Part shown: positions 5,538 through 48,071 of the stretch, in pieces
Layout: each line of letters begins with the position of its first letter
Position numbering within the stretch: position 1 is the first letter of the stretch
NCBI GenBank assembly: GCA_002748665.1
Contig: PDTB01000029.1
Span: 1 to 50,798, forward strand
Direction: 5' to 3'
Length of the DNA stretch: 50,798 bases
Origin: Dethiosulfovibrio peptidovorans
Lineage (GTDB): Bacteria; Synergistota; Synergistia; Synergistales; Dethiosulfovibrionaceae
Position numbers and translations under genes: made by a program
Notes under the pieces: generated by a model
Databases searched by the model: none
Told to the model about the DNA's origin: nothing
Seen by the model: the letters and a program-made list of their open reading frames with translations, nothing else

Positions 5538-6890
5538 TCAACGGAACATGTTGCCGAGACCCTTGAACTTGGGCATCTGGAATTTCTTACGCCCTTTACC
5601 TTTTCCCATCCGTTTCCAGAGATCGTTCATCTGACTCTGCTGTTTCAATAGCTGGTTCACCATCTGAACGGTGGTACCAGATCCCTGGGCGATTCGTCGA
5701 CGCCGGCTTCCCTTGATGACCGACGGATTGCGACGCTCCTCGGCAGTCATGGATTGGATAATCGCTTTCATACGAACCAGACGCCCCGTGTCCACCTGAC
5801 CATCCTGGAGTTCCTTGACCTTATCGGCACCGGGGATCATCTCCATGACTTTCTCCAGAGGCCCCATGCGCTCAATTTGCTCAAACTGGGCCAGGAGATC
5901 GTTGAAATCAAGCCGGTTCTTTTTGAGAGATGAGGAAAGACGCTCTACGTCGGCCTCGCTTGTGGCCTGCTCTATTTTTTCGACGAGCCCGACCACGTCA
6001 CCCATTCCCATGATGCGCTCGGCCATTCGCTTGGCGTCGAAGACCTCAAGTGCATCGATACCTTCCCCGACTCCCACGAACTTGATGGGGACACCTGTCG
6101 TCGCCAAAACGGCCAGGGCAGCCCCACCACGGGCATCGCCATCCACCTTGCTCAGGATAACCCCGGTAAGCCCAAGTCGCTCGTGGAAGGCCTGAGAGAC
6201 CGAGACCGCCTCCTGACCGGTCATCGCATCGACGATCAGCAGTATCTCGTGAGGAGCCGTTCGCTCTTTTATCTGATCGAGTTCGGCCATGAGTTCCTGA
6301 TCCAGGGCCAGCCGTCCGGCGGTGTCGAAGAGGATCACGTCCATGAGCCGCTCTCTGGCGAAGGTCTTGGCCTGATCGATCACGGAAAAGACGTCGGTCT
6401 CACCAGGTTCGGGACCGTAGAATCCCACTCCGGCAGAATCGGCCAGAACCCGAAGCTGGTCCACCGCCGCAGGCCGTCGAAGGTCGCAGGCCACGACCAG
6501 GGGCTTGTGGCTCCGGCTCAACCTTTTGGCGAGCTTGACCGTGCTGGTGGTTTTACCACCTCCCTGAAGCCCGACCATGAGGATGATCGTCGGCGGCTTG
6601 GGGGAGATAACGAGAGGCCGAGCCTCGGTACCCATGAGCTTCATGAGCTCCTCGTAGACCACGGCCACCACCTGCTGCCCCGGGGTGATGGAGTCCAGAA
6701 CGGATCGATCCAACGCTTTGAGGCGGATTCGATCCACCAGGTCTTTGACGACCTTGTAGTTGACGTCGGCCTCCAGGAGAGCCCGACGAACCTCACGCAG
6801 AGCCTCCTGAACGTCGACTTCCGTCAGTTTTCCCTTGCCTTTCAGGTTGTTGAATACACTGTCAAGCCTTTTTTTCAGAGCGTCGAACAC
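5538..6890 (-). CDS. ffh: Signal recognition particle protein Ffh (SRP54)
   Basis: The 450-residue GTPase binds signal sequences and 4.5S RNA to target nascent membrane proteins to FtsY. The N domain (1-90) is followed by the G domain with the P loop GLQGGGKTT (107-115), the insertion-box region, a DTAGR motif and [13 protein letters not shown]. The C-terminal M domain is methionine-rich and contains the RNA-binding segment ...[20 protein letters not shown], ending in a basic, Lys/Gly-rich tail. Length is normal. It overlaps the ylxM stop by 16 bases. Confidence 0.97.
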
Positions 6891-7264
6891 GACACATCAC
6901 TCCCTTCGTCAGCGGGATCGTCCTCGGAGAGAAGAGCAAGAACCGCCTGACGAACGATCGCAGGTATGCGATCAGCTTCTCTCTCGATTACCCCAATGGC
7001 CCTATGAATCCGCCCTTCCATCTCGTCCAGTCGACGAGCGAACCCCAAAGAGCTCTCCAGCTCCTCCAGTCGATCTCGAGCTCGTCGAAGCTGATCCGAG
7101 ACCCCCTGACGGCTTATGTCCAGCTCCTGGGCGATCTCGAAGAGGGACAGGTCCTCAAGATCGTGCATCTCATAGACCAGCCGTTGTTTCTCGGTGAGAA
7201 CGGGACCGTAGAGATCGTATAACCTGGTGAGCTCCAGCCGTCGTTCCAGGGAATCTGAGGTCAC
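6875..7264 (-). CDS. ylxM: YlxM/p13-like helix-turn-helix protein, SRP operon
   Basis: The 129-residue product starts at the GTG at 7264, preceded by AAAGGAGG; the frame is open further upstream, but that stretch is the promoter region. Residues about 12-66 form a sigma-70 region-4-like helix-turn-helix, with LTEKQRLVYEMHDLEDLSL and ISRQGVSDQLRRARDRLEELE. YlxM is a small partner encoded directly upstream of ffh in many bacteria and reported to stimulate SRP GTPase activity in some. The C-terminal helix (about 75-115) is an extension of unknown role. Confidence 0.88.
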   Translation of the reverse strand: MTSDSLERRLELTRLYDLYGPVLTEKQRLVYEMHDLEDLSLFEIAQELDISRQGVSDQLRRARDRLEELESSLGFARRLDEMEGRIHRAIGVIEREADRIPAIVRQAVLALLSEDDPADEGSDVSCSTL

Positions 7265-7292
7265 GCTCGGTCCCTCCTTTGCAAGACGACAT

Positions 7293-7321
7293 AGTATAGA
7301 CCGCACGACAGATGGTGTCAA
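7293..7321 (-). promoter_or_regulatory. Promoter of the ylxM-ffh-rpsP-rimM-trmD-rplS operon
   Basis: A near-consensus sigma-70 promoter: TTGACA (opposite 7316-7321), 17-base spacer, TATACT (opposite 7293-7298). It sits 28 bases before the ylxM start and is back to back with the rqcH promoter. Confidence 0.8.
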
Positions 7322-7331
7322 GAGAAAAACC

Positions 7332-7360
7332 TTGACACAGATCACTATGGCGTACATACT
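7332..7360 (+). promoter_or_regulatory. Promoter of rqcH
   Basis: TTGACA (7332-7337), a 17-base spacer and CATACT (7355-7360). It diverges from the ylxM promoter; the two -35 hexamers are only ten bases apart, so the promoters may compete or share a regulator. Confidence 0.65.
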
Positions 7361-7397
7361 GTCCATCAGCCATGATACAAAAGGAGCGTGATGCCTC

Positions 7398-9092
7398 ATG
7401 GGATATGGTCCGGAGTTTGTCTCGGCTCTGGCCGATGACCTGTTCGCCAGACTGGCCGGTGCGTCCGTGTCAAAGGTGGAGGGAGGCGCTGATTGGGTCG
7501 TCTGCCACACAAGACAAGGAGATCTCTTTCTCTCGTGGAGTGCCGACTCCTTTGGCGCGACGGTGCTCCACCCATCGGAGAAAACGATTCCCAGGATTCT
7601 GGGAGCTACCAGGGGTGGCATCGCTCTGGCGCTGGCAAAACACCTGAACGGAGCAAGCATTCAGGAGATTCGTCAGGAACGGAACGACCGTGTGCTGAGT
7701 TTTCGGTTTCGGCGATTCGTCGGGGCCGGGGTTCAATCGGAACACACGCTGATCCTCGAGCTCACGGGACGCCTGAGCAACGCCGTTCTGATTGATGAAG
7801 AGGGGATCATCGTCGAACCAGCCCGTCACGTCCACCCCGACGTGAACCGATACAGGACGATCCTTCCAGGCCTGGCATACACGGGACCGCCCCCCCTGGA
7901 CGGCCACCCCTGGGACGAGATCTCCCCCGACACGGTGAGAAAGTACCTCAGTCGTCCGTTGGGAATCGGCCGCCCACTGAGAGCACACCTCATGGCGTTG
8001 TTGGACGAGGCGATCCTGGACGAAGCAGCGATTATTCGTGGGCTCTCGGCTATTCGAGATGGGCACTCTCTCACAGTGTACGGTCTGGACGGGTACCTGA
8101 CGGTCTGGCCAGAAGATCTGCCCAAAGGCACTCCCCTTGCGGGAACCCCTCTGGATGGGGGGAGAACCCAGAGCCTGGATCGGAAGCTGGCTCGGATCCG
8201 GGACGAGCTCGTCTCGTCGGGGCAAAAGGCGCTGCGCAGAAGCCTCAAGGGCATCGATCGCCACAGAGACGGATTGCTCCGTCAGCTGGCCATGATCGAC
8301 GAGGCCGAAGCCCTCAAGCGTAAGGGGCAAGCTATCCTGGCCAACGTCCACGCCATCGCTCCTCGATCAACCGAGGCTCGGCTTCCTTTCTGGGACGAAG
8401 AAGGGAAGGAAGTCGCCGTTCAGGTTCACCTGAATCCCGACCTGAATCCAGCGGGTAACGCTGAGAGATATTTCAAGAAGTACAGAAAATACAGCGCCGA
8501 CGAGTTCCAGGTCCGACGTAACCTCACTCGGGTTCAGGAGCGACGGGACGAGCTGGAGACACAGAGGGATAATCTGGAACGGATTCAGGATCTGACCGTG
8601 CTTCGCAAACTCGTTCGAGAGCTCTCCGGCGCTTCGGACCGTGAGCGTCCCAAGGCCAAGGGGAAAAGGCAGGAAGACGAGCCACCCCACGTTCGGTATG
8701 ACGTGGACAGATCGGTCATCCTGGTGGGGCTCAACGAACGAGGAAACCGTCACGTGACGTTTCGACTCGCCGGACCGGACGATCTGTGGTTCCATGTCCA
8801 CGAACTGCCGGGCTCCCACGTGATCCTGAAGCCAGAACCGGGTCGAAAGCCCGAGCCCTGGCTGATCGATACGTGCGCCTCCCTGGCTCTCTATTACTCC
8901 AAGGGTGCGTCTCTGCCCCGATGTTCGGTGGACTACACGACGCGAAAACACGTCCGGCACATACCCGGTGCCGGACCAGCTCAGGTTACCTATAAAAACA
9001 GCCTGTCTCGAACCGTTACCCCCGATCTCTGGCGAGAAGGGATCGAAGGACCTCACGAAGTTTCTCGGGAAGACGACTCCGAAAGCTCATGA
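7398..9092 (+). CDS. rqcH: RqcH-type NFACT protein (ribosome-associated quality control)
   Basis: The 564-residue protein matches the NFACT/FbpA family (formerly 'fibronectin-binding'), the bacterial counterpart of Rqc2. It binds stalled 50S subunits and adds C-terminal alanine tails to nascent chains. The N-terminal NFACT-N domain has the functional Asp-Arg pair at residues 97-98 (ERNDRVLSF). Two HhH-like and coiled-coil regions follow (about 180-430), then the NFACT-R domain with DLWFHVHELPGSHVIL and a basic segment near the end. The ATG at 7398 follows AAAGGAG. The last 77 bases overlap the 3' end of rluD on the other strand. Confidence 0.92.
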   Translation: MGYGPEFVSALADDLFARLAGASVSKVEGGADWVVCHTRQGDLFLSWSADSFGATVLHPSEKTIPRILGATRGGIALALAKHLNGASIQEIRQERNDRVLSFRFRRFVGAGVQSEHTLILELTGRLSNAVLIDEEGIIVEPARHVHPDVNRYRTILPGLAYTGPPPLDGHPWDEISPDTVRKYLSRPLGIGRPLRAHLMALLDEAILDEAAIIRGLSAIRDGHSLTVYGLDGYLTVWPEDLPKGTPLAGTPLDGGRTQSLDRKLARIRDELVSSGQKALRRSLKGIDRHRDGLLRQLAMIDEAEALKRKGQAILANVHAIAPRSTEARLPFWDEEGKEVAVQVHLNPDLNPAGNAERYFKKYRKYSADEFQVRRNLTRVQERRDELETQRDNLERIQDLTVLRKLVRELSGASDRERPKAKGKRQEDEPPHVRYDVDRSVILVGLNERGNRHVTFRLAGPDDLWFHVHELPGSHVILKPEPGRKPEPWLIDTCASLALYYSKGASLPRCSVDYTTRKHVRHIPGAGPAQVTYKNSLSRTVTPDLWREGIEGPHEVSREDDSESS

Positions 9093-18871: not shown

Positions 18872-20206
18872 ATGTCAGATACCGTACGAGTCCGATTCGC
18901 CCCGAGTCCTACCGGGGCACTGCACATCGGCGGTGCCCACACAGCGCTGTTTAACTGGCTCTGGGCACGGCATACAGGAGGACGCTTCATCCTGCGCATT
19001 GAGGACACCGACCAGGTCCGATCTACGAAGGAATACGAGGACACCATCATGGCGGGAATGAAGTGGATGAATCTGGACTGGGACGAGGGTCCCGATATGG
19101 GAGGCGACCATGGCCCATATCGTCAGACCGAGCGCTTTGATCTGTACCGAACCTACGCCCAGAAACTTCTGGACCAGGGCCTGGCCTACAGGGATGGCGA
19201 CGCCGTTATCTTCAAGGTCCCGATCGGTGAAGATATCGGCTTTCAGGACATGGTGTACGGCTCCATCGACGTGGTCAGCGATTCCCTCAAAGACGGTCGG
19301 ACCGGCCAGATGAAGGATATCGTCCTGATGAAAAGCGACGGTACACCGACATACAATTACGCCGTTGTGGTGGACGATCACCTCATGGAGATATCCCACG
19401 TTATCCGGGGAGAGGATCACATCTCCAACACGCCCAAGCAGGTGCTTCTCTACAAGGCCCTTGGGTGGGAGTTGCCGACATTCGCTCATCTGCCCATGAT
19501 CCTGGGCAAGGACAAGAAAAAGCTCTCCAAACGCCACGGGGCCACCAGCGTTTACGAGTATCGGGACATGGGGTACATGGCTGACTCGGTCTTCAACTTT
19601 CTGGCTCTGTTGGGATGGGCTCCCGACGGGGACCGGGAGATATTCGACCGGGATCTGGCCATTCAGGAATTTGAGCTGGCCGACGTAAACCGAAAGCCCT
19701 CGGTCTTCGATATGGATAAACTGAACTACGTCAACCAGGGACATCTCCACGCTCTCTCCACCGACGACAAGATAGCCCTTCTCTCTCCCTTCTGGAAAGA
19801 GGCCGGTGTCGATATCTCAAACCTGGATCGGGAGTACATGGACAGGGCTTTTGCCCTCATGGGAGGCAGGGGCCGGAACGTCAAGGATCTGGCTGAGTTT
19901 ACCGACTATTTTCTTGACTTCGCTCCCGTCACCCGCCGATACGACGGAGCCGTGGACGAACAGGTGCGGGAGACCCTTCGGACGTTCTTCACCGCTTTGC
20001 TCGACTTGGATGATTGGACAGCTTCGTCCATGGAGGCCTTTGCCAGAGAGTGGACCAAGGACCATTCGGTCAAGCTCAAGGACGTAGCCATGCCCATGCG
20101 GTTCGCCATCACAGGACACAAGGTCAGCCCAGGTATTTTCGAGCTCGCCGAATTTCTCGGACGAGGCGAGGTTCGAAAGAGACTGGAGCACTATAAGTTC
20201 GTATAA
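18872..20206 (+). CDS. gltX: Glutamyl-tRNA synthetase
   Basis: The 444-residue class I enzyme has APSPTGALHIGGAHTALFNWL near the N-terminus (HIGH box as HIGG) and KKLSKRHG as the KMSKS loop. The catalytic-domain motif RGEDHISNTPKQ is present. The C-terminal anticodon-binding region (about 310-444) is at the short end of the family. Since GatCAB is encoded in the same window, this enzyme is probably non-discriminating, charging both tRNA-Glu and tRNA-Gln, but that cannot be read from the sequence alone. An AGGGAGG ribosome site precedes the ATG. Confidence 0.96.
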   Translation: MSDTVRVRFAPSPTGALHIGGAHTALFNWLWARHTGGRFILRIEDTDQVRSTKEYEDTIMAGMKWMNLDWDEGPDMGGDHGPYRQTERFDLYRTYAQKLLDQGLAYRDGDAVIFKVPIGEDIGFQDMVYGSIDVVSDSLKDGRTGQMKDIVLMKSDGTPTYNYAVVVDDHLMEISHVIRGEDHISNTPKQVLLYKALGWELPTFAHLPMILGKDKKKLSKRHGATSVYEYRDMGYMADSVFNFLALLGWAPDGDREIFDRDLAIQEFELADVNRKPSVFDMDKLNYVNQGHLHALSTDDKIALLSPFWKEAGVDISNLDREYMDRAFALMGGRGRNVKDLAEFTDYFLDFAPVTRRYDGAVDEQVRETLRTFFTALLDLDDWTASSMEAFAREWTKDHSVKLKDVAMPMRFAITGHKVSPGIFELAEFLGRGEVRKRLEHYKFV

Positions 20207-20212
20207 TACAAT

Positions 20213-20252
20213 GGGGAGGGGCGACAATTTTGTCCCTCCCCGTTTCGTTTTT
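20213..20252 (+). terminator. Rho-independent terminator of gltX
   Basis: GGGGAGGG (20213-20220) pairs with CCCTCCCC (20234-20241), followed by GTTTCGTTTTT. It starts seven bases past the gltX stop. Confidence 0.85.
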
Positions 20253-20348: not shown

Positions 20349-20939
20349 TTATTTCTCTACAGAGACCTTTTCGCTGGAGTCCCTGGGAGAGCTGGCGGCG
20401 CAAGCGCCACAGGCCGCACGGTCCTCTTCCCTAACCTGGTATACCTCCTTAGTTTGTTCCGAGGACAACTCAAGCTGAGGCTCCTCACCAAGTCGATAGG
20501 TCCATTCAGACTGAAAGGGTTTTCTTTCAGGCACCCCCGAGTCCACCGTGACGTGTCCCTGTCGGTCGTAGGAGGATATGGCAAAATCCCTGCTCATGCT
20601 CAGGGCGTCTACAGGGCAGATGTCGTTGCACTGGGCGCAGAAACAGCACCGGTCGTTGTGGACGATGATCTTCTTCGGCTCATTGGGCGACCGCTCAATC
20701 GCGTTGGCGGGACAGACTTTCATACACATCCCGCAGCCGATACATATGTCCTTCTGGTAGCTGATCTTCCCTCGAAATCGTCCCCAGGTCTCTACTGGTT
20801 CGTTCAGGGATATCTCGCCCCGAGCCGCAGCCTCCATGGCTCCGGTGAGATCGTCGGGCATGTGTTCCGCCAGGAAGGGGTTGGTGAAGGGGCGTTGGAA
20901 CAACTGGCGCAGGAGCTGAACCGACATAACGTTAAACAT
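20349..20939 (-). CDS. mbhN: Hydrogenase ferredoxin-like subunit MbhN (NuoI family)
   Basis: The 196-residue protein carries two [4Fe-4S] motifs: CIGCGMCMKVCP (Cys66, 69, 72, 76) and CCFCAQCNDICP (Cys98, 101, 104, 108). It would relay electrons from reduced ferredoxin to the small subunit on the cytoplasmic face. The N-terminal helix resembles NuoI/EchF-type subunits. Beyond the second cluster is a roughly 85-residue tail that is acidic and ends near a CGAC pair (about residue 178), which is not required for the usual clusters. It is the last gene of the 14-gene operon, 11 bases after mbhM. Confidence 0.93.
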   Translation of the reverse strand: MFNVMSVQLLRQLFQRPFTNPFLAEHMPDDLTGAMEAAARGEISLNEPVETWGRFRGKISYQKDICIGCGMCMKVCPANAIERSPNEPKKIIVHNDRCCFCAQCNDICPVDALSMSRDFAISSYDRQGHVTVDSGVPERKPFQSEWTYRLGEEPQLELSSEQTKEVYQVREEDRAACGACAASSPRDSSEKVSVEK

Positions 20940-20950
20940 GGTATTCCTCC

Positions 20951-21949
20951 TCAGTGCAGCCAGACATCAACGGTCATGAGGATCATTCCGGCCAAGGAGA
21001 GAGCTGCCACCTGTCCCCAATAGAACCTAGCAGCCTGCCAGATCTTGAGCCGACCAAATGCCGTTCGGAGAAAGGTTACTCCAAAGACCTCGACCAAAAA
21101 GAGCTTGAAGAAAAACCAGGGAAAATCGACCAGCGCTAAAGGAGTCCCCGTCAACCCCAGGGAAAGCCCCAGCGAAAAGGGGAAAAAGAGACAGACCACA
21201 AGGGCCGATATGGCAGCGGCTCTCAGGTTGAAGGCGACGTGAAGCAAGGCAAGGTTCACTCCGGAGTATTCCACTGTGACGCCCTCCAGGATCTCTGTTT
21301 TGGCCTCGGGGATATCCATAAGCCCCTTACCTGCCTCACCGGGTATCACCGCCAAGAGAGCGACAAACAGACAGGCCAGGCCCAACAGTCCGGCTTTGCC
21401 AGCCATACCCCACACAGGCGTGGCGACGTAGGTCTCCAGGGCAAAAGGATGCCCCGGTATCCCCAGACGATAGACAGCCCACGCCAAGGTCGCAACGACC
21501 ACAGCCAGAGGAAGTTCGTAACTCATCATGAGGACGAGCTCCCTTTGAGCCCCTACGTTAGCGATGGGGGATCCACTGGCAAAACCTCCAACGGCGACAG
21601 CGACCCCCGAAAGGCTCAAAAGGTAGAGCACCAAAATCAGATCGCCGCGCCCGCTCAGTACAGGCGGCAGAGACCCTATGGGGATATACAGGAAGGTCAT
21701 CATCCCGGCCACAGCAGCCACCCAGGGACCGCCGTGAAAGAGTACGGGAGAACTCAACCGGGGAACGATGTTCTCCTTTCCCAAAAGTTTGAGGATATCG
21801 TACAGGGGTTGCAGCATAGGCGGCCCTATGCGGCGCTGCATCAGGGCGTGAAGTTTCCTGTCGACACCCTCAAAGAGCACCGCCAAAACGGTGACCAGAA
21901 GCATAAGAGTCAGCCCGGCCAGTATTCTCATCACGATGTCGAGAATCAT
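20951..21949 (-). CDS. mbhM: Hydrogenase membrane subunit MbhM (NuoH family)
   Basis: This 332-residue integral membrane protein has about eight hydrophobic segments and NuoH/EchB features: the cytoplasmic loop RKLHALMQRRIGPPMLQPLYDILKL-type region near residue 31-55, and the acidic segment MDIPEAKTEILEGVTVEYSG-like stretch (about 215-235). It anchors the hydrogenase module and links it to ion translocation. Its start overlaps the mbhL stop by four bases (ATGA). Confidence 0.94.
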   Translation of the reverse strand: MILDIVMRILAGLTLMLLVTVLAVLFEGVDRKLHALMQRRIGPPMLQPLYDILKLLGKENIVPRLSSPVLFHGGPWVAAVAGMMTFLYIPIGSLPPVLSGRGDLILVLYLLSLSGVAVAVGGFASGSPIANVGAQRELVLMMSYELPLAVVVATLAWAVYRLGIPGHPFALETYVATPVWGMAGKAGLLGLACLFVALLAVIPGEAGKGLMDIPEAKTEILEGVTVEYSGVNLALLHVAFNLRAAAISALVVCLFFPFSLGLSLGLTGTPLALVDFPWFFFKLFLVEVFGVTFLRTAFGRLKIWQAARFYWGQVAALSLAGMILMTVDVWLH

Positions 21950-23187
21950 GCCATCTGCCTCCTCAGACTATCGGTCTTCTCCCTGCAGAGCTTCAGGAGA
22001 TCGGCCTTGGTAACTACGGAGTTGGTACCGGTTCCTCGATCTGACAAAACCATCCGTTCCATACAGGAAATACAGGGATCGATGCTGTTGATGATCAGAG
22101 GAGCATCGGCCAGCTCGTTGTTCCGAAACATCAGAGGCCAGGAAACAGCGTTGCTGTAGGTAGGAGCTCGGACCTTCCACCAGAGCACGTTCTCCTGTTT
22201 CTCCTTGAGGCCCACCACGTGAGTGTCGTCGCCTCGGGGGGCTTCGATACAGCCATACCCAACTCCTCCGGCCTTTTTCAGGACAGAGAGCAACTTGTTC
22301 ACCTTGGGCTCGAAGGCGATATCCCCTTCGGGAAGGCCATCCAGGATGTCCTCCAGGATATCCAGGGATTGATTGACCTCGAACACACGAACGACAAAAC
22401 GGTCGAAAACATCGCCGTGGACCGGCTCACCCGTATAGTCCTGAGGCATGACAGGCTCCACAGGGATATCACAATACGCATCGTAGGGAGCCGACCAACG
22501 GATATCGCATCGGACACCACTTCCTCGAGCCGTCGGCCCAAGAGCACAGTATCGAATGGCCTCTTCGGTAGTGAGCACACCCACGTTCCGAAGCCTGGCC
22601 CGAATCACGGGATCGACTATGGCAGCCTCGTAGAACGAGGAGAACTCGTTTCTGTAATAACGGATCATCTCCCGGACGACTCTATCCACCTCGGGGGTCA
22701 CGTCCCACCGAACCCCGCCCACCGTGGTGACAGCGTAGTTGACCCTGTTTCCCGTCAAGGCCTCAAGAACGTCCATGACCTTTTCCCGAAGCATCATGCC
22801 CAGATGAAAGGCGCTGTCGAACCCTATGGTGTAACAGGCGACACCAGACCAGAGAATGTGTGAGTGGATCCGCTCAAGCTCCAGCACCATCGACCGGATA
22901 TACTGAGCCCTGGGTGGAACCGGAATCTGTGCAGCGTCCTCGACCGCCTTGACGAAGGCGATGGCGTGAGCAAAGGAACAGATACCGCAGACCCGCTCCG
23001 ACAGGTAGATAACCTGGATCGGGTTCCGCTCGCGCGCCATGAACTCCACTCCTCGGTGAATGGCTCCGGGACGGATGACGGCGTTGGTTATAGACTCACC
23101 CTCCACGTCGAGCCACGCCGTGATGGGTTCCTTGAGTCCTACGTGAACTGGACCGACGGGAAGTTTGTAGGTTTTTTTCTCGCTCAT
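21946..23187 (-). CDS. mbhL: [NiFe] hydrogenase large subunit MbhL (group 4, NuoD family)
   Basis: The 413-residue catalytic subunit has both NiFe-binding pairs: RVCGICSFAHA (Cys67, Cys70) and DPCISCMER (Cys372, Cys375). This separates it from Mbs/Mbx-type or complex I homologues that have lost such cysteines. A 35-residue tail follows Arg378. In other group 4 enzymes such as HycE, a tail after the equivalent Arg is removed by a dedicated protease after metal insertion, so this is probably a precursor. No hyp or protease genes are in the window. A good ribosome site (AGGAGG) lies before the ATG; the gene starts nine bases after mbhK. Confidence 0.95.
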   Translation of the reverse strand: MSEKKTYKLPVGPVHVGLKEPITAWLDVEGESITNAVIRPGAIHRGVEFMARERNPIQVIYLSERVCGICSFAHAIAFVKAVEDAAQIPVPPRAQYIRSMVLELERIHSHILWSGVACYTIGFDSAFHLGMMLREKVMDVLEALTGNRVNYAVTTVGGVRWDVTPEVDRVVREMIRYYRNEFSSFYEAAIVDPVIRARLRNVGVLTTEEAIRYCALGPTARGSGVRCDIRWSAPYDAYCDIPVEPVMPQDYTGEPVHGDVFDRFVVRVFEVNQSLDILEDILDGLPEGDIAFEPKVNKLLSVLKKAGGVGYGCIEAPRGDDTHVVGLKEKQENVLWWKVRAPTYSNAVSWPLMFRNNELADAPLIINSIDPCISCMERMVLSDRGTGTNSVVTKADLLKLCREKTDSLRRQMA

Positions 23188-23196
23188 GGTCGCCTC

Positions 23197-23745
23197 CTAG
23201 GAGAGCTCTTCAACCAGATCGTCCCCGGGAGCTGTCTCATCCCGGCGCCAGGGGAAGACCTCCCGGTTCCAATCCTCAGGAAGGAACACCAGGGCCTTGT
23301 TGGGCAAGCCCACGTGGTCCACCCCGAACATCTCCTGAATTTCCCTCTCGCTGTATTCAACACCAGGAATACGACTGAAGAGGGACGGAATGGAGAGATC
23401 TTCCTTGGAAAGGCGGACACAGACGGTGAGGGGAAGACGAGTCCCTCGGGAGAGGGCTCTGTAAAGGTCCAGATGGTAGTACAGAAGCACCTCGTCGCCC
23501 TGATCATCACCGGACGTCACGTGGAAGTGAGGAAAATCGAAGGTTCCTATCTCATCCACCACGTCGAGAAACCGATCCCGAACCACGGTAAACCAGAGAT
23601 GATATCCTGTGACCTCTCCCGATGGTCCATGGGATAATTCCCGAAGCTCCAGGTCGGTAATAGCCTCCCCGAAGGTCGTCTGAAAATGCTCGGCGATCTC
23701 TTGAGGAGACCGCAGGATTTTCGGCCTCTCAATAAAGACCTCCAT
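23197..23745 (-). CDS. mbhK: Hydrogenase subunit MbhK (NuoC family)
   Basis: The 182-residue soluble protein matches the 30-kDa NuoC/EchD type: residues about 85-160 include the conserved region with IPGVEYSEREIQEMFGVDHVG, close to the complex I-30 kDa signature. It fits between the small and large subunits, in order with archaeal mbhK. The ATG at 23745, preceded by AGGTG, is chosen; an open frame upstream overlaps mbhJ. The C-terminus is acidic. Confidence 0.88.
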   Translation of the reverse strand: MEVFIERPKILRSPQEIAEHFQTTFGEAITDLELRELSHGPSGEVTGYHLWFTVVRDRFLDVVDEIGTFDFPHFHVTSGDDQGDEVLLYYHLDLYRALSRGTRLPLTVCVRLSKEDLSIPSLFSRIPGVEYSEREIQEMFGVDHVGLPNKALVFLPEDWNREVFPWRRDETAPGDDLVEELS

Positions 23746-23749
23746 GGGA

Positions 23750-24205
23750 TCACGCACCTGCCTTTCGAAGCTCCATGCGTTTGGCCTCCAGCTTGAGCAC
23801 CGCCTTGGCAGCTCCCTCGATAATAGCCTCTGGCCGGGGCGGACAGCCATGAACGTACACGTCCACGGGAATCACCTTGTCTACCGGGCCAACCAGGTTG
23901 TAGGATTTGAAATACACGTCACCGGAACAAGCGCAGTTCCCCACAGCGAGAATAACCTTGGGATCGGGGATCTGAGCGTAGATTCGCTCCAGTTTTTCCT
24001 TCATGAACCGGGTAACAGGACCGGTTACCAACAGAACGTCGGCGTGACGAGGCGTCCCGATAAGCTTCATACCGAATCGCTCAATGTCGTATCGGGGACT
24101 CACCGTGGAGACGATCTCGATGTCGCATCCATTGCACGACCCCGAGTTGGTGGAAAAAACCCACAGCGATTTGGGCAGTACCTTTAACATCCTCTCCAGT
24201 TTCAT
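23750..24205 (-). CDS. mbhJ: [NiFe] hydrogenase small subunit MbhJ (NuoB family)
   Basis: The 151-residue iron-sulfur subunit binds the proximal [4Fe-4S] cluster beside the NiFe site. Ligand cysteines are visible in SGSCNGCDIE (Cys24, Cys27), VGNCACSG (Cys91) and HGCPPRPE (Cys121), the usual NuoB/EchC pattern. The ATG at 24205 follows AGGAGGGG and overlaps the mbhI stop by four bases. No Tat signal is present, as expected for group 4 enzymes that face the cytoplasm. Confidence 0.94.
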   Translation of the reverse strand: MKLERMLKVLPKSLWVFSTNSGSCNGCDIEIVSTVSPRYDIERFGMKLIGTPRHADVLLVTGPVTRFMKEKLERIYAQIPDPKVILAVGNCACSGDVYFKSYNLVGPVDKVIPVDVYVHGCPPRPEAIIEGAAKAVLKLEAKRMELRKAGA

Positions 24206-24555
24206 AGACGCCCCTCCTGAACGAATATCAAGACAAGCAGGATCGCCGTGGTCACCACGAACCATCCCACATAGGCCACAGTGTACCCCGAATGAAAGGC
24301 AATGAGCCGATCATAATAAGGACGTAAGGCTTTTCGATATCCCCAATAGGACGAGCTGGCCGGGACGGTTATCTCCGTGGGGTTCTCGGGAAGCTCGTTC
24401 CCGGAAAAATAGATTTGATCCTGGTCTGTTCCCTTTTTGTAGTCCTGCCGCCCCTGAGAACGAATCCACGAGACAACTACGCCGGCAACCACAAAAAACA
24501 AGAGCCAAGTTCCTATATCCCAAAACCCAAAACCGGTGAACAGACAGCCTGTCAT
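24202..24555 (-). CDS. mbhI: Small membrane protein MbhI-like
   Basis: The 117-residue protein has a hydrophobic N-terminal segment (about residues 10-30), a polar middle, and a second hydrophobic segment near the C-terminus (about 88-112). It lies between the antiporter subunit gene mbhH and the small subunit gene mbhJ, exactly where archaeal Mbh operons carry mbhI, a linker between membrane modules. Sequence alone would not identify it; the assignment rests on position, length and topology. Its ATG overlaps the mbhH stop by one base (TGATG), after GGAGGTGG. Confidence 0.7.
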   Translation of the reverse strand: MTGCLFTGFGFWDIGTWLLFFVVAGVVVSWIRSQGRQDYKKGTDQDQIYFSGNELPENPTEITVPASSSYWGYRKALRPYYDRLIAFHSGYTVAYVGWFVVTTAILLVLIFVQEGRL

Positions 24556-26126
24556 CACAGTCCACCTCCCAAAACGGCCCCCACGTAGGCCCCCTTGTCC
24601 AGCAAAGCTGTGGCTGCGGGCTCGACCAAATGGGACATGACCCAGGTCGGGAATAAACTGAGCCCCAAAATGACCACGACCAACACGGACATTCCGGCAA
24701 GCATGGCCCCGGGAACCTCCCGAACCTCGGTGAATTCAGGGCGCTCAGGTCCCAAAAAGGCCGCCTGAAAGACCTTCACAAATGACGCCAGCGTCAGAAC
24801 GGAGGTCACAAGCGCCACCACAGCCAACAGAGGATGGACTGTGAAAGCCGATTCGTAGATCAGCAGTTTGGAGACAAAACCGTTACAGGGCGGGATCCCC
24901 GAGATCGCAGCCGCAGCCAGGACGAACATACCGCAGGTCAGAGGCATCTTTCGGACCAAGCCGCCCATTCGGTCCAGATCCCGGGTTCCGGTAACGTAAT
25001 AGAGGGATCCTGCCGTCAGAAAGAGCAATCCCTTGTACATCATGTAGTTGACCATATGAAATATTCCGCCCTGGATGGACATCTTCCCGAACTCGACGGT
25101 CTGCCGAGGATCACCGATGACCAGCAATCCGACTCCGAAAGCCATAAGCATGTATCCCACCTGGGAGACTGAGTGATACCCCATGAGGCGCTTCACCTCG
25201 TGCTGTACGACAGCCATGGAGACGCCAAAGAACATGGAAAACACGCCAAGACAGATCAGTGTCCAGGGGATTACGTCGGTCCCGATAGCCGTACCAAACA
25301 CGGAGAAGAGCAGACGACACAGACCGACGAGAGACGCCTGACTGACGACCACCAGAAGCACAGTCACCGATGCCGGAGCCTCGGCGTACGAATCGGGCAT
25401 CCACATGTGCATGGGGAAAGCCCCACACTTCATAGCCAGCGCCGTCACAAGAAAGACCAGGGCGATCTTCTCGGCTATCCCAGGACGAACAACCGACCCC
25501 AAAGCCGCCATGTTCAACAGGTTATACCTGCCATAGAGAAAGCCGATGGCCAGTAACACCGTCATGGCCGCTACCTGAGAGACCAGCATGTATTTGAAGG
25601 AGGCCTCGATGGCCTCGGATCGATCCCTCCAATAGGCAATTAAGCCGAAGGATGCGACCGATGCGATCTCCAGAAAAACGAAGAAATTAAACAAATCCCC
25701 CGTGAGGACCAGTCCCAACATACCGGCGGTCAGGAGAAAATACAGGGCCGTATACCAGTTCCGACCTGAAAAACGGTTCAGGAATCGAAGACCGAACAAC
25801 GTTCCCGCCAGGGAGGCGAAACAGCCGATCACCGCCACAAAGGCGTTGAAAGAATCCACCTCAAGGATGATCCGAACCGGATAGACGAGCCCCGACGGCA
25901 GAGTGAAGTTCCACGCCTCACCTCCCATGACGTACACGGCCGTCCCGTTCACGGAGACATACCGAAGGAGACAGAAGGACAGGAACAGCAACACACAAGA
26001 GACCAGGACAGACCACGCTCCCCGAAGCAACCGCCCGCCCAAGACTCCCATAACCGGCGAGAGGAAAGCCCCTAACAGGGGGATCGCCAACATAAGAGCA
26101 GGAAGGTGAACGCTCCAGCCAGTCAT
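24555..26126 (-). CDS. mbhH: Mrp/complex I-type antiporter subunit MbhH (MnhD/NuoN family)
   Basis: The 523-residue membrane protein has about fourteen hydrophobic segments. Conserved charged residues of the antiporter family are visible: Glu153 in FFVFLEIASV, Lys233 in ALAMKCGAFPMH followed by the MWMPDSYAEAP loop, His309/Lys312 in QHEVKRLMGYHSVSQVGYML, His357 in GGIFHMVNYMMYKGLLFL and Lys420 in PCNGFVSK. It should translocate Na+ or H+ coupled to electron flow. Only one such large subunit is encoded here, as in archaeal Mbh (Mbs has two). Confidence 0.93.
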   Translation of the reverse strand: MTGWSVHLPALMLAIPLLGAFLSPVMGVLGGRLLRGAWSVLVSCVLLFLSFCLLRYVSVNGTAVYVMGGEAWNFTLPSGLVYPVRIILEVDSFNAFVAVIGCFASLAGTLFGLRFLNRFSGRNWYTALYFLLTAGMLGLVLTGDLFNFFVFLEIASVASFGLIAYWRDRSEAIEASFKYMLVSQVAAMTVLLAIGFLYGRYNLLNMAALGSVVRPGIAEKIALVFLVTALAMKCGAFPMHMWMPDSYAEAPASVTVLLVVVSQASLVGLCRLLFSVFGTAIGTDVIPWTLICLGVFSMFFGVSMAVVQHEVKRLMGYHSVSQVGYMLMAFGVGLLVIGDPRQTVEFGKMSIQGGIFHMVNYMMYKGLLFLTAGSLYYVTGTRDLDRMGGLVRKMPLTCGMFVLAAAAISGIPPCNGFVSKLLIYESAFTVHPLLAVVALVTSVLTLASFVKVFQAAFLGPERPEFTEVREVPGAMLAGMSVLVVVILGLSLFPTWVMSHLVEPAATALLDKGAYVGAVLGGGL

Positions 26127-26470
26127 CCTCTAAGCCTCCTGATCTCCCGAACATCCAGAGTACCATAGTGGCGGTAGAGCATCGCCACCAGAGAGAGCAT
26201 CAGAGCCGACGTCGCCATGGCGATGACGATAGCCGTCAGGGTCAGGGCCTGAGGCGTTGGTAAAACAAAGATATCGCCGGAACCAGCCAGAAACTTGATA
26301 GGGATCGTTCCGCCGTATCGATAACCCAAGGTCACCAAGAACATGTTCACAGCCGACTCCATGACACCTATGGCAACGGTTATCTTCAGGAGATTATTCT
26401 CGACGATCACCCCTATCAGGCCCATGAGGAACAGCAGCCCCGCCACGATAAAAGGCATGTTAGGCTCCAT
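26123..26470 (-). CDS. mbhG: Mrp-type subunit MbhG (MnhC/NuoK family)
   Basis: The 115-residue protein has three membrane segments. The NuoK-like glutamate lies in VIENNLLKITVAIGVMESAVN, and PQALTLTAIVIAMATSALMLSL is the MnhC signature. The ATG at 26470 follows AAAGGAGG; the coding region overlaps the mbhF end by 11 bases, and its stop overlaps the mbhH start by four. Confidence 0.92.
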   Translation of the reverse strand: MEPNMPFIVAGLLFLMGLIGVIVENNLLKITVAIGVMESAVNMFLVTLGYRYGGTIPIKFLAGSGDIFVLPTPQALTLTAIVIAMATSALMLSLVAMLYRHYGTLDVREIRRLRG

Positions 26471-26945
26471 GACCTGCCTCCTTTTGATCATCGGAAAAAT
26501 CCTGAAGAAGGATCCCCCGAAACATGGCTATAAGGATGATCGTCAGTCCACCAGCCACCTCAATACCCACAGCGATGTCCATCAAGCCGATGGTCCCTGA
26601 AAAAGGGACGAGGCCATGGGACATGGATGCTGCCACATGGTGAGGCACCGCAAGATAGTTCAGGAAAAACGCACCGTGTCCCAGCCCCCAGAACCCCAGG
26701 CCGATGAACAGGAGCAAGCCAAAAAACAGCAGGACCCAATAGACGGACATATGAACCCATTTGAGAATCCGTTTCCCGCCGTGAGAGACCAAAAGCAGGG
26801 CCATGAACGATGCCACAACGGCACCGCCCTGAAAGCCACCGCCGGGTGACATGTCACCGTGTATGATGATATACACACCAAAGATGATCAAAAACCACGC
26901 GAACAGGTTACAGACCGTCCGGGCCGCCAAAGAAAGCGGATTCAT
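26460..26945 (-). CDS. mbhF: Mrp-type subunit MbhF (MnhB family)
   Basis: The 161-residue membrane protein has four hydrophobic segments and the MnhB hallmark SPGGGFQGGAVVAS after the second one. The ATG at 26945 follows GGGGGAGA; an open frame further upstream lies inside mbhE and is not used. In Mrp complexes this subunit works beside MnhA C-terminal parts. Confidence 0.92.
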   Translation of the reverse strand: MNPLSLAARTVCNLFAWFLIIFGVYIIIHGDMSPGGGFQGGAVVASFMALLLVSHGGKRILKWVHMSVYWVLLFFGLLLFIGLGFWGLGHGAFFLNYLAVPHHVAASMSHGLVPFSGTIGLMDIAVGIEVAGGLTIILIAMFRGILLQDFSDDQKEAGHGA

Positions 26946-26947
26946 CG

Positions 26948-27217
26948 TTATCTCCCCCTCTTTCGGAACAGCATCACCACAGAACACAGGGCGGTGAAAA
27001 GCACGGAGGACTCGCCGATGGTGTCGAAGCCTCTATAGTCGAACACGATGGAGGTCACCACGTTCTCCGACGAGCGATCTGGAACGGCATGCTCCAGAAA
27101 ATACCGATCCATGGCGGTCTCTCCAGGCTCGCCAAAGGGATGAATTCGGTCCAACCCGGCGAGAAGCATACCGCCCAAGACCAAGGCTGCGACGACAAAC
27201 AGGACCTTGAGCCTCAT
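26948..27217 (-). CDS. mbhE: Mrp-type subunit MbhE (C-terminal MnhA-like)
   Basis: The 89-residue protein has one hydrophobic segment at each end (about 5-22 and 66-84) and a polar middle. Its C-terminal segment has IVFDYRGFDTIGESSVLFTA, the typical MnhA C-terminal/NuoJ-like motif. In Mrp antiporters this is part of the large A subunit; in Mbh it is a separate gene. The gene overlaps mbhD by four bases. Confidence 0.85.
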   Translation of the reverse strand: MRLKVLFVVAALVLGGMLLAGLDRIHPFGEPGETAMDRYFLEHAVPDRSSENVVTSIVFDYRGFDTIGESSVLFTALCSVVMLFRKRGR

Positions 27218-27468
27218 GAACGTCCCCCCCGTTTTTTCAAACGTCCAGTCCCCATCAACGCGATGATGAAAATGGCCGTTTCCAGAGCAGCTCCGATGCC
27301 CGCCTCCGCGATAGCCACGTCGGGAGCATGAAGGATATAGAACTCCAGGGCCAGAAGGAGACTAAACGCTCCAAGGCTGATGACCGAGTACAGGAGATTC
27401 CGGAACCACAAGGCGTAGAAGCCCGTCAGCAAGAGTAAAAGCAGGTTCACGTTGTGAAAGAAAGTCAT
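27214..27468 (-). CDS. mbhD: Mrp-type subunit MbhD (DUF4040-like)
   Basis: The 84-residue protein has three hydrophobic segments with the conserved APDVAIAEAGIGAALETAIFI motif found in DUF4040/MbhD and MnhA proteins, holding acidic residues within the membrane. It overlaps both neighbours by four bases. It belongs to the ion-translocating half of the complex. Confidence 0.88.
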   Translation of the reverse strand: MTFFHNVNLLLLLLTGFYALWFRNLLYSVISLGAFSLLLALEFYILHAPDVAIAEAGIGAALETAIFIIALMGTGRLKKRGGRS

Positions 27469-27842
27469 CGGTTTTCCCCCTTTCTGATGCCCTGATCTCT
27501 GTCGAACAGATGATCGACAACGGCCTCCTTGGGGAATACCTTGCTTCGATGAGCCGCTCGAGCTAGCACGTGGGCTCCGGTGGCATTGCTGATGAGGAGC
27601 GCCATCACCACGACAACCAGGTGAACAACGAGTACCAGGTACCGGACGTCACCGGAGGAAAGCCGCTTGGTCACAGCGTACAGAATAACGCCCAAGGATA
27701 TGGAGATGGTACCGAAGGTCGTACACTTGGTCGAACCGTGCATTCTGGTGTAGACGTCGGGAAAACGATAGAGAGAGAGAGTCCCCAGAGCATCCACCAG
27801 AAGCCCCAGGACAACGAAAAACCCGGGAATAATGAACTCCAT
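27465..27842 (-). CDS. mbhC: Mrp-type subunit MbhC (MnhG family)
   Basis: The 125-residue membrane protein has three hydrophobic segments and the MnhG signature GTLSLYRFPDVYTRMHGSTK, followed by TFGTISISLGVILY. The ATG at 27842 follows GGAGGTGAG; an open frame upstream overlaps mbhB and is not used. The C-terminal part is soluble and charged. Confidence 0.92.
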   Translation of the reverse strand: MEFIIPGFFVVLGLLVDALGTLSLYRFPDVYTRMHGSTKCTTFGTISISLGVILYAVTKRLSSGDVRYLVLVVHLVVVVMALLISNATGAHVLARAAHRSKVFPKEAVVDHLFDRDQGIRKGENR

Positions 27843-27846
27843 GCCC

Positions 27847-28101
27847 TCACCTCCCCTGGAGATATCGGGCAATAAACATGGTGCTCACGAAGGACAGAGC
27901 AGCGTACACGATGGCCACGTCCACCATCACGACGGAATCGAAGCGTGCAGCCAGCAGGATCATGACACCGATGACCAAGGTATTCATCGCATCCAGGGCC
28001 ACAGCCCGATCCGCCCCCGTAGGGCCCATCACGAGCCTAACCGTCATGAGCAGGAGGAGAAACAGAAGGAAACCCGTCGAATACTGGAGGAAAATATCCA
28101 T
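27847..28101 (-). CDS. mbhB: Mrp-type subunit MbhB (MnhF family)
   Basis: The 84-residue protein has three membrane segments with VMGPTGADRAVALDAMNTL and the acidic VMVDVAIVYAALSF, both MnhF signatures. The ATG at 28101 begins three bases after the mbhA stop, preceded by AAAAGGTGG inside mbhA. Confidence 0.92.
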   Translation of the reverse strand: MDIFLQYSTGFLLFLLLLMTVRLVMGPTGADRAVALDAMNTLVIGVMILLAARFDSVVMVDVAIVYAALSFVSTMFIARYLQGR

Positions 28102-28103
28102 AA

Positions 28104-28592
28104 TTACTGAGCCACCTTTTTTGCCCATTCGCCAAAGGAGCCGTACACGGCCTCTCCAGTCGGCTCCAGGTCGGTCACGTTAATCCAGTGGATGTAGAAA
28201 ACGCCGCTGTCTTCCTCTAAATCCACAGTCAGGGTTCCGGGAGTAAGGGTGATAGCGTTGGCCAAGACGGTCTTGGCCAACGTTCCAGAGAGACCGGTGT
28301 CCACCCGGACGATGCCCGGACGAATTTTGCCGGTGATGATACGAATGGCTACGTCGATATTTGCCTTGATCAGGGCTATGAGAAAGGGACCAAAAAGGAA
28401 GGATATAAAACGAACCCACCGAAACGGGTTGAGACTGGAGATACCAAAATACCTGGCGTGACTGAGACTTCGAACCGCAAGAGCTACAACCAAAGCCAAC
28501 ACGAGACCGATACCTATCTCCACTGGCGGCACCTTCTCCCCAGACCAGACCAGAAGTTCGTACATGAGAAAGGAAAGGACAAAGATGAACAC
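28104..28592 (-). CDS. mbhA: Mrp-type subunit MbhA (MnhE family)
   Basis: The 162-residue protein has two or three N-terminal hydrophobic segments and a cytoplasmic MnhE domain. Its ANAITLTPGTLTVDLEEDSG motif and the terminal FYIHWINVTD are typical. It is the first gene of the operon. Three start codons are clustered here (GTG 28601, TTG 28598, GTG 28592). The last is preferred because a GGGGGTG ribosome-site match lies six bases before it, whereas that match overlaps the first. Confidence 0.9.
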   Translation of the reverse strand: MFIFVLSFLMYELLVWSGEKVPPVEIGIGLVLALVVALAVRSLSHARYFGISSLNPFRWVRFISFLFGPFLIALIKANIDVAIRIITGKIRPGIVRVDTGLSGTLAKTVLANAITLTPGTLTVDLEEDSGVFYIHWINVTDLEPTGEAVYGSFGEWAKKVAQ

Positions 28593-28601
28593 GGACAACA
28601 C

Positions 28602-47962: not shown

Positions 47963-47975
47963 GTTCAGGATCATC

Positions 47976-48071
47976 GCTCCTCATCGATGTTAGCAGGACC
48001 ACCTTACCCCCTTGGGCAGGTTGGCGCAGGATCAACGAGCTAACTCTCTCCCCTGACTCTGGATAAACAGC
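47976..48071 (-). ncRNA. Probable SAM riboswitch (S-box-like) of metNIQ
   Basis: On the minus strand the outer P1 stem pairs GCTGTTTATC with GATGAGGAGC (one G-G mismatch). The core has CCAGAG, CAGG pairing with CCTG, GCCAACCT-loop-AGGTGGTCCTGC, close to the SAM-I elements GGCAACC and GGTGC-CCTGC, and TGATCC/GATGAG near the ends. A terminator and the methionine importer follow, which fits SAM control. The match is by eye and departs from the consensus in the central GGACTGGCCC region, so the class is uncertain. Confidence 0.6.

Follow-up and report, generated by a model that had tools for sequence, protein, structure and literature searches.

The window analyzed here is a 50,798-nucleotide (nt) stretch of the Dethiosulfovibrio peptidovorans genome (assembly GCA_002748665.1, contig PDTB01000029.1, positions 1 to 50,798), whose minus strand carries, between positions 20349 and 28601, fourteen open reading frames that domain and profile searches place in the order mbhA to mbhN. 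Judged from its sequence, this operon, from a member of the Synergistota (family Dethiosulfovibrionaceae), very probably specifies a working energy-converting [NiFe] hydrogenase of the Mbh type (group 4d). Bacterial Mbh is already in print: according to excerpts of earlier reports, 12 of 15 Synergistota genomes have group 4d hydrogenases (PMC10867827), Acetothermia Ran1 has MbhA-N (PMC6092417) and Atribacteria have Mbh A-M (PMC6281690). The operon is therefore a confirmation and no new kind of system. Its least expected detail is an extra module of MbhN that is common in the phylum and decayed in the window.

Group assignment rests on phylogenetic trees and on comparison with PDB structures and NCBIfam models. 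The PDB comparison covered MbhF to MbhJ, MbhL, MbhM and MbhN, and the membrane-bound hydrogenase (MBH) of Pyrococcus furiosus (6cfw, group 4d) was the closest solved relative of six of these (MbhL, H, I, J, M and F), with a weak match in the case of MbhI (E 7.5e-5). MbhL scored 362.8 bits against 6cfw, 238.2 against formate hydrogenlyase, 161.5 against the best complex-I-type chain and 142.6 against MBS, and is ∼45-47% identical to Thermococcus copies (a figure for Thermococcus, not P. furiosus itself). A reading made earlier from the sequence alone had proposed an Mbh-type enzyme with a single large antiporter subunit, and this held: one MnhD-type gene (mbhH) is present. The “two-segment small protein” of the same reading is MbhI, which scored 120.2 bits with the equivalog model NF053600 (cut-off 95), so that the predicted position of mbhI is also borne out. 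Thus the operon shares with P. furiosus MBH the fourteen genes in one order, the single large antiporter, the MbhI linker and the metal ligands described below; it differs in being bacterial, in the alteration of several proposed coupling charge pairs and in the remnant of an extra ferredoxin module at the end of mbhN.

Alignment to MBH placed all four nickel-iron cysteines in MbhL (C67, C70, C372 and C375, in two CxxC motifs), as had been claimed for the large subunit. P. furiosus Glu21L and His75L correspond to E20 and H74, and no metal site is missing. The proximal-cluster CxxC of MbhJ reads SCNGC, its cysteines two residues apart. The CxxC distinction for MbhJ was taken from PMC7684303 and residue roles from PMC11228991 and PMC7684303, each available as excerpts.

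Four other identities were considered and rejected. MBS (6u8y) resembles the operon in joining an Mrp module to a Nuo-like module; according to an excerpt of PMC7684303, it lacks Glu21 and two of the four nickel-iron cysteines and has another proximal-cluster motif. Window MbhL and MbhJ show neither these losses nor the three-cysteine proximal cluster by which MBS/Mbx members are recognized. Respiratory complex I has lost all four nickel-iron cysteines and is marked by adjacent NuoB cysteines and a NuoL/M/N set; the operon contains one large antiporter gene, and no second MbhL/NuoD-like gene was found in the genome. Formate hydrogenlyase (7z0s) is the second-best match for MbhL and MbhJ and keeps the nickel-iron site, but the operon has no formate dehydrogenase gene and does have an Mrp module. 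Identity as a stand-alone Mrp antiporter was likewise rejected.

Trees were built from MbhL, MbhH and MbhJ. The 125-row MbhL tree excludes L052, repeats (L157-L163) and rows below 100 bits or 280 aa; the 75-row tree excludes 50 further rows (near relatives and long branches, including L046); and the MbhH tree excludes L039, L046, L052, L083 and L087. Synergistales MbhL form one clade, with a Shimodaira-Hasegawa-like approximate likelihood ratio test (SH-aLRT) value of 96 in the 125-row tree and support of 100/100 in the 75-row tree. FastTree recovered the same clade for MbhH (100, 96 rows) and MbhJ (91, 115 rows). In the 75-row tree the branch uniting this clade with the remaining Mbh rows has 92/70 support and is not starred, and three Thermococcus rows with fused NuoC-NuoD and both CxxC motifs, which appear formate-hydrogenlyase-like, separate at 100/97. 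The outgroup consists of NuoD-like Thermococcus rows without CxxC (L170 and L173), presumably MBS, which lie far off. As far as the data allow, MbhL thus falls with Mbh, outside the MBS-like and fused [NiFe] rows, in answer to the concern that it might group with complex I or Mbs/Mbx subunits.

By match position, all fourteen genes stand in mbhA-N order in 34 of the 40 operon regions taken from elsewhere in the phylum and in 36 of 80 named bacterial and archaeal loci. The underlying scan of genome contigs confirmed at least 587 relatives, of which the best 80 were kept; it may omit records near the window and samples thinly outside Synergistota. Loci short of fourteen genes in order are in many cases cut by contig ends, and a few are rearranged. 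The order reported by the sequence-only reading is therefore shared by relatives, and it is far beyond chance. Colinear operons outside the phylum, some cut by contig ends, occur in Atribacterota, Bipolaricaulota, a Thermotoga bin, Caldisericota, Thermoplasmatota and Thermococci. Atribacterota do not all have Mbh, because the isolate RT761 is described in an excerpt of its report as being without [NiFe] hydrogenases (PMC7736352).

Chromosomal position was compared for 31 Synergistales loci, namely the rows of L033-L066 and L072 with at least 2.4 kb beyond mbhN (beyond mbhM for L059). A convergent gltX lies within 1.2 kb in 21 of these, spanning families f1 and f3-f10; in the remaining ten, which include f2, no gltX is within reach. 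Identity of MbhL within the genus is 87-89%. Given the Synergistales clade and the shared gltX site, the operon is most simply explained by inheritance within the order. Of the alternatives “transfer between domains or ancient inheritance” left by the sequence-only reading, inheritance within Synergistales is supported, and there may have been deeper exchange between bacteria and archaea. Three loci from another part of the phylum (L067-L069, genomes G002-G004, family f11) have no gltX neighbor and group beside DHVE2 Thermoplasmatota (80/47, not firm). These two features suggest that Mbh may have entered the phylum on more than one occasion.

The window's genome is rated 100% complete with 1.31% contamination, in 48 contigs. 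Away from the operon it contains adjacent hypC-hypD-hypE (TIGR00074 for hypC and TIGR02124 for hypE over cut-off), hypF and a HycI-like hydrogenase maturation protease (TIGR00072 over cut-off, HycI equivalog model below cut-off). Among 185 genomes of the phylum, including the window's, MbhI was found in 75 (69 over cut-off), and HypD in 65 of the 75 MbhI-positive versus 8 of the 110 MbhI-negative genomes; note that these genomes are related and so not independent. No other [NiFe] large subunit and no [FeFe] hydrogenase domain (PF02906) were found in the window's genome, although PF02906 matches occur in all six other genomes of the genus. The species looks like a natural single-hydrogenase system. 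Other Synergistota and Acetothermia Mbh are alike in enzyme class and, for the Synergistales loci examined, in gene order and often in the gltX site; they differ in that extra [FeFe] and [NiFe] enzymes are common there, according to excerpts of PMC10867827 and PMC6092417. Three matches to PF01558 (2-oxoacid oxidoreductase gamma) and RnfD are also present and would provide the chemistry of ferredoxin. A V-type K subunit has the Na+-ATPase of E. hirae as its best solved relative, and the five residues that we take to be the Na+ site of that ATPase are all present in the alignment. Na+ bioenergetics is plausible for the species on these grounds.

Substrate, catalysis, direction and ion coupling of the enzyme are inferred from work on P. 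furiosus, including excerpted functional work on MbhABC and Na+ (PMC8415708), and from general knowledge of the genus. By this analogy, 2-oxoacid:ferredoxin oxidoreductases of amino-acid fermentation would reduce ferredoxin, which would dock on MbhN. The redox step would evolve H2 and power H+ pumping via MbhM and MbhH, and MbhA-G would swap H+ for Na+, leaving a Na+ gradient.

Several observations weigh against a functional Mbh of this kind. Two charge pairs, Lys24L-Asp379L and Lys53I-Glu375H, have been proposed for coupling chemistry to pumping in P. furiosus; in the window Lys24L is T23 and Asp379L is E377, Lys53I aligns with N and Glu375H with R. MbhG is nearer MBS than MBH in the PDB comparison (bit scores in Table 1), and for MbhN polyferredoxins head the PDB list, with 6cfw_N fifth. 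The maturation search was confined to hypC, hypD, hypE, hypF and the endopeptidase, and HypD is missing from 10 of the 75 MbhI-positive genomes, some of them incomplete. A second rotor-type frame (82 residues) is present in the genome, so that Na+ is only a tentative assignment for the ATPase. Values of dN/dS (the ratio of nonsynonymous to synonymous substitution rates) for the fourteen genes versus two congeners are 0.04-0.23; they point to coding constraint and so favor a functional enzyme, but are rough, since dS exceeds 1 throughout. With regard to the MbhL pair, T and E at the Lys24L and Asp379L positions are each present in 52 of 55 other Synergistales MbhL rows. Because both are so widely kept, the coupling model in its published form cannot apply universally at this level of detail.

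An Mbs- or Mbx-like ferredoxin:sulfur reductase with the same gene order but with hydrogenase chemistry lost would be in keeping with a genus that reduces sulfur and thiosulfate. The same operon logic and the affinity of MbhG for MBS also favor it. This alternative is nevertheless very improbable, given the four nickel-iron cysteines, Glu21 and the MBH-type MbhJ CxxC, the best scores of MbhL, H, M, J, I and F to MBH, the single large antiporter subunit and separate MbhI, the hyp genes elsewhere in the genome and the distance in the tree of the CxxC-less, MBS-like Thermococcus rows. Group 4 hydrogenases are reversible in principle and the organism also has Rnf, so a real Mbh could instead serve mostly for the reverse reaction or act as a redox valve, the ion gradient driving H2 uptake to reduce ferredoxin. 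We consider this improbable, because the three 2-oxoacid:ferredoxin oxidoreductase gamma matches suggest ample ferredoxin reduction and the genome yielded no further hydrogenase. A recent horizontal acquisition from archaea, to which the archaeal origin of the best solved relatives might point, is hardly credible in view of the Synergistales clades of MbhL, MbhH and MbhJ, the gltX site common to most loci and the high identity of MbhL within the genus.

The extra module of MbhN was scored in 35 complete MbhN sequences from the 40 operon regions fetched from other genomes of the phylum, five regions without a complete MbhN beside MbhL (L039, L052, L059, L070 and L071) being excluded. An additional C-terminal, ferredoxin-like pair of [4Fe-4S] motifs is present in 19 of the 35 (L051, with three motifs by the strict pattern, was counted as four-cluster), and Pfam Fer4 matches back the module in three of the 19. 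All five congeners examined (L033-L036 and L187) have it, whereas in the MbhN of the window the two full cluster motifs of a congener are reduced to ‘...REEDRAACGACAASSP...’. When window mbhN was compared by eye with the DNA of L033, the frame was open, several cysteine codons were substituted and about 90 to 100 bases were missing; the tail has the appearance of decay rather than of a sequencing error. Outside the phylum set, four motifs were found in one of 50 rows from L096-L155 (Thermococcus L154), L096 being itself a Synergistetes bin; the module is thus not restricted to Synergistota. At least nine changes of module state are needed on the best quick tree. In a separate observation, the MbhN of L048 and L049 ends in a long, low-complexity tail rich in lysine and asparagine.

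Matches to PF02906 occur in all 19 four-cluster genomes versus 9 of 17 two-cluster genomes including the window's (Fisher p 0.0008), but the genomes are related, and the five independent pairs (∼2 agree, none disagree, ∼3 same) cannot reach significance. Note also that the seven [FeFe]-negative genomes other than the window's were identified by elimination, and that the E values of many PF02906 matches, roughly 1e-16 to 1e-26, are weak and these proteins need not be hydrogenases. One tentative reading, which we regard as rather doubtful, is that the Mbh of Synergistota forms a variant of its own, in which a second ferredoxin module integral to MbhN (four [4Fe-4S] motifs versus two) provides an extra electron entry port gained and lost repeatedly, and that in the window's species the module decayed alongside the disappearance of every [FeFe] hydrogenase, so that a minimal Mbh is the sole hydrogenase left. 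If true, the module would link Mbh to the [FeFe]/bifurcating part of the electron network. No description of the MbhN module was found in a narrow search of open-access PMC text.

Coordinates of the fourteen genes and of gltX are given in Table 1. When longest frames are used, genes overlap at 11 of 13 junctions, by exactly 4 nt at five of them (C/D, D/E, G/H, H/I and L/M), and the two remaining junctions, K/L and M/N, have gaps of 9 and 11 nt, respectively, in line with the earlier statement that nearly all genes touch or overlap. The earlier reading was right that fourteen genes are present, but the operon end that it gave, 28592, corresponds to a GTG codon within the longest frame of mbhA, three codons from the start of that frame. 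The convergent gltX lies 142 bases from the operon, with polA beyond it; a gene for a major facilitator superfamily (MFS) transporter lies on the opposite side. Promoter and terminator scans gave numbers close to those for shuffled sequence. A 15-pair stem occurs at 20210-20244, between mbhN and gltX. Elsewhere in the window, a S-adenosylmethionine (SAM) riboswitch (S box leader) occupies 47968-48069 on the minus strand.

Table 1. Longest frames of the mbh operon and the adjacent gltX, with window positions and supporting matches
Gene (product or likeness)	Position	Strand	Matches and remarks
mbhA (MnhE-like)	28104..28601	-	PF01899
mbhB (MrpF-like)	27847..28128	-	PF04066
mbhC (MnhG-like)	27465..27872	-	PF03334; TIGR01300 over cut-off
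mbhD (DUF4040)	27214..27468	-	PF13244 MbhD
mbhE (MnhA C-terminal-like)	26948..27217	-	PF20501 MbhE
mbhF (MnhB-like)	26460..26987	-	PF04039; best PDB match 6cfw_F
mbhG (MnhC/NuoK-like)	26123..26491	-	PF00420; PDB 6u8y_G (MBS) 89.9 bits, 6cfw_G (MBH) 77.3 bits
mbhH (single large MnhD-type antiporter subunit)	24555..26126	-	PF00361; NF006240 662.7 bits; best PDB match 6cfw_H, 342 bits
mbhI (linker of hydrogenase and membrane modules)	24202..24558	-	NF053600 equivalog over cut-off; best PDB match 6cfw_I
mbhJ (NuoB-like; proximal [4Fe-4S], MBH-type CxxC)	23750..24265	-	PF01058; best PDB match 6cfw_J; real start probably inside this frame
mbhK (NuoC-like)	23197..23850	-	PF00329; overlaps mbhJ by about 100 nt, real start probably near 23745
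mbhL ([NiFe] large subunit; C67, C70, C372, C375, E20, H74)	21946..23187	-	PF00346, PF00374; best PDB match 6cfw_L, 363 bits
mbhM (NuoH-like)	20951..21949	-	PF00146; best PDB match 6cfw_M, 188 bits
mbhN (NuoI-like, 2x[4Fe-4S])	20349..20939	-	Fer4 families; last ∼23 codons are the remnant of the extra ferredoxin module
gltX (convergent neighbor, outside the enzyme; marks the conserved site)	18872..20206	+	TIGR00464; synteny

Variant loci were also seen among the relatives. Ten Thermoplasmatota-type loci (L132, L134, L138, L144, L146-L148 and L151-L153), in records mostly titled Thermoplasmata or Thermoplasmatota, hold J-K-L-N together without membrane genes, and in L149 A-I and M stand behind J-K-L-N. 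L052 (G043:C133, 1222-7323) is an Mbh operon whose genome, 98% complete, gave no match to HypD or PF02906. It keeps mbhA-H, with mbhH apparently fused to mbhI, and its contig ends inside mbhL; MbhL, in one frame with MbhK, is without the first CxxC and MbhJ without SCNGC. From these features, L052 may represent an Mbh that has reverted to an Mrp-like complex lacking redox function. An apparent fusion of mbhH and mbhI (a 634-aa frame) is also present in L037 (G113, 6000-7901), as well as in G114 and G115. Very divergent Mbh-like operons that keep both CxxC motifs lie at the gltX site in L046 and L185 (single-contig genomes G021 and G022) and in L186 (G023). MbhL of L046 has an end branch of 3.19; in this locus mbhA and mbhB were unfound by profile, and mbhC was detected only at a lax threshold. 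The profile search did not find mbhA-C in L185 or mbhA and mbhC in L186. A HypD match is present in G023 and was found in neither G021 nor G022.

Taken together, the results indicate that a complete Mbh, an enzyme best studied in hyperthermophilic archaea, is old and stably inherited in a bacterial order, where it often occupies a single chromosomal site. The altered residues at Lys24L, Asp379L, Lys53I and Glu375H offer a natural test of the published coupling model, and the variable ferredoxin module of MbhN a natural test of electron entry. Since the window's species looks to have a single hydrogenase, an isolate could reveal the amount of energy that Mbh conserves by itself.

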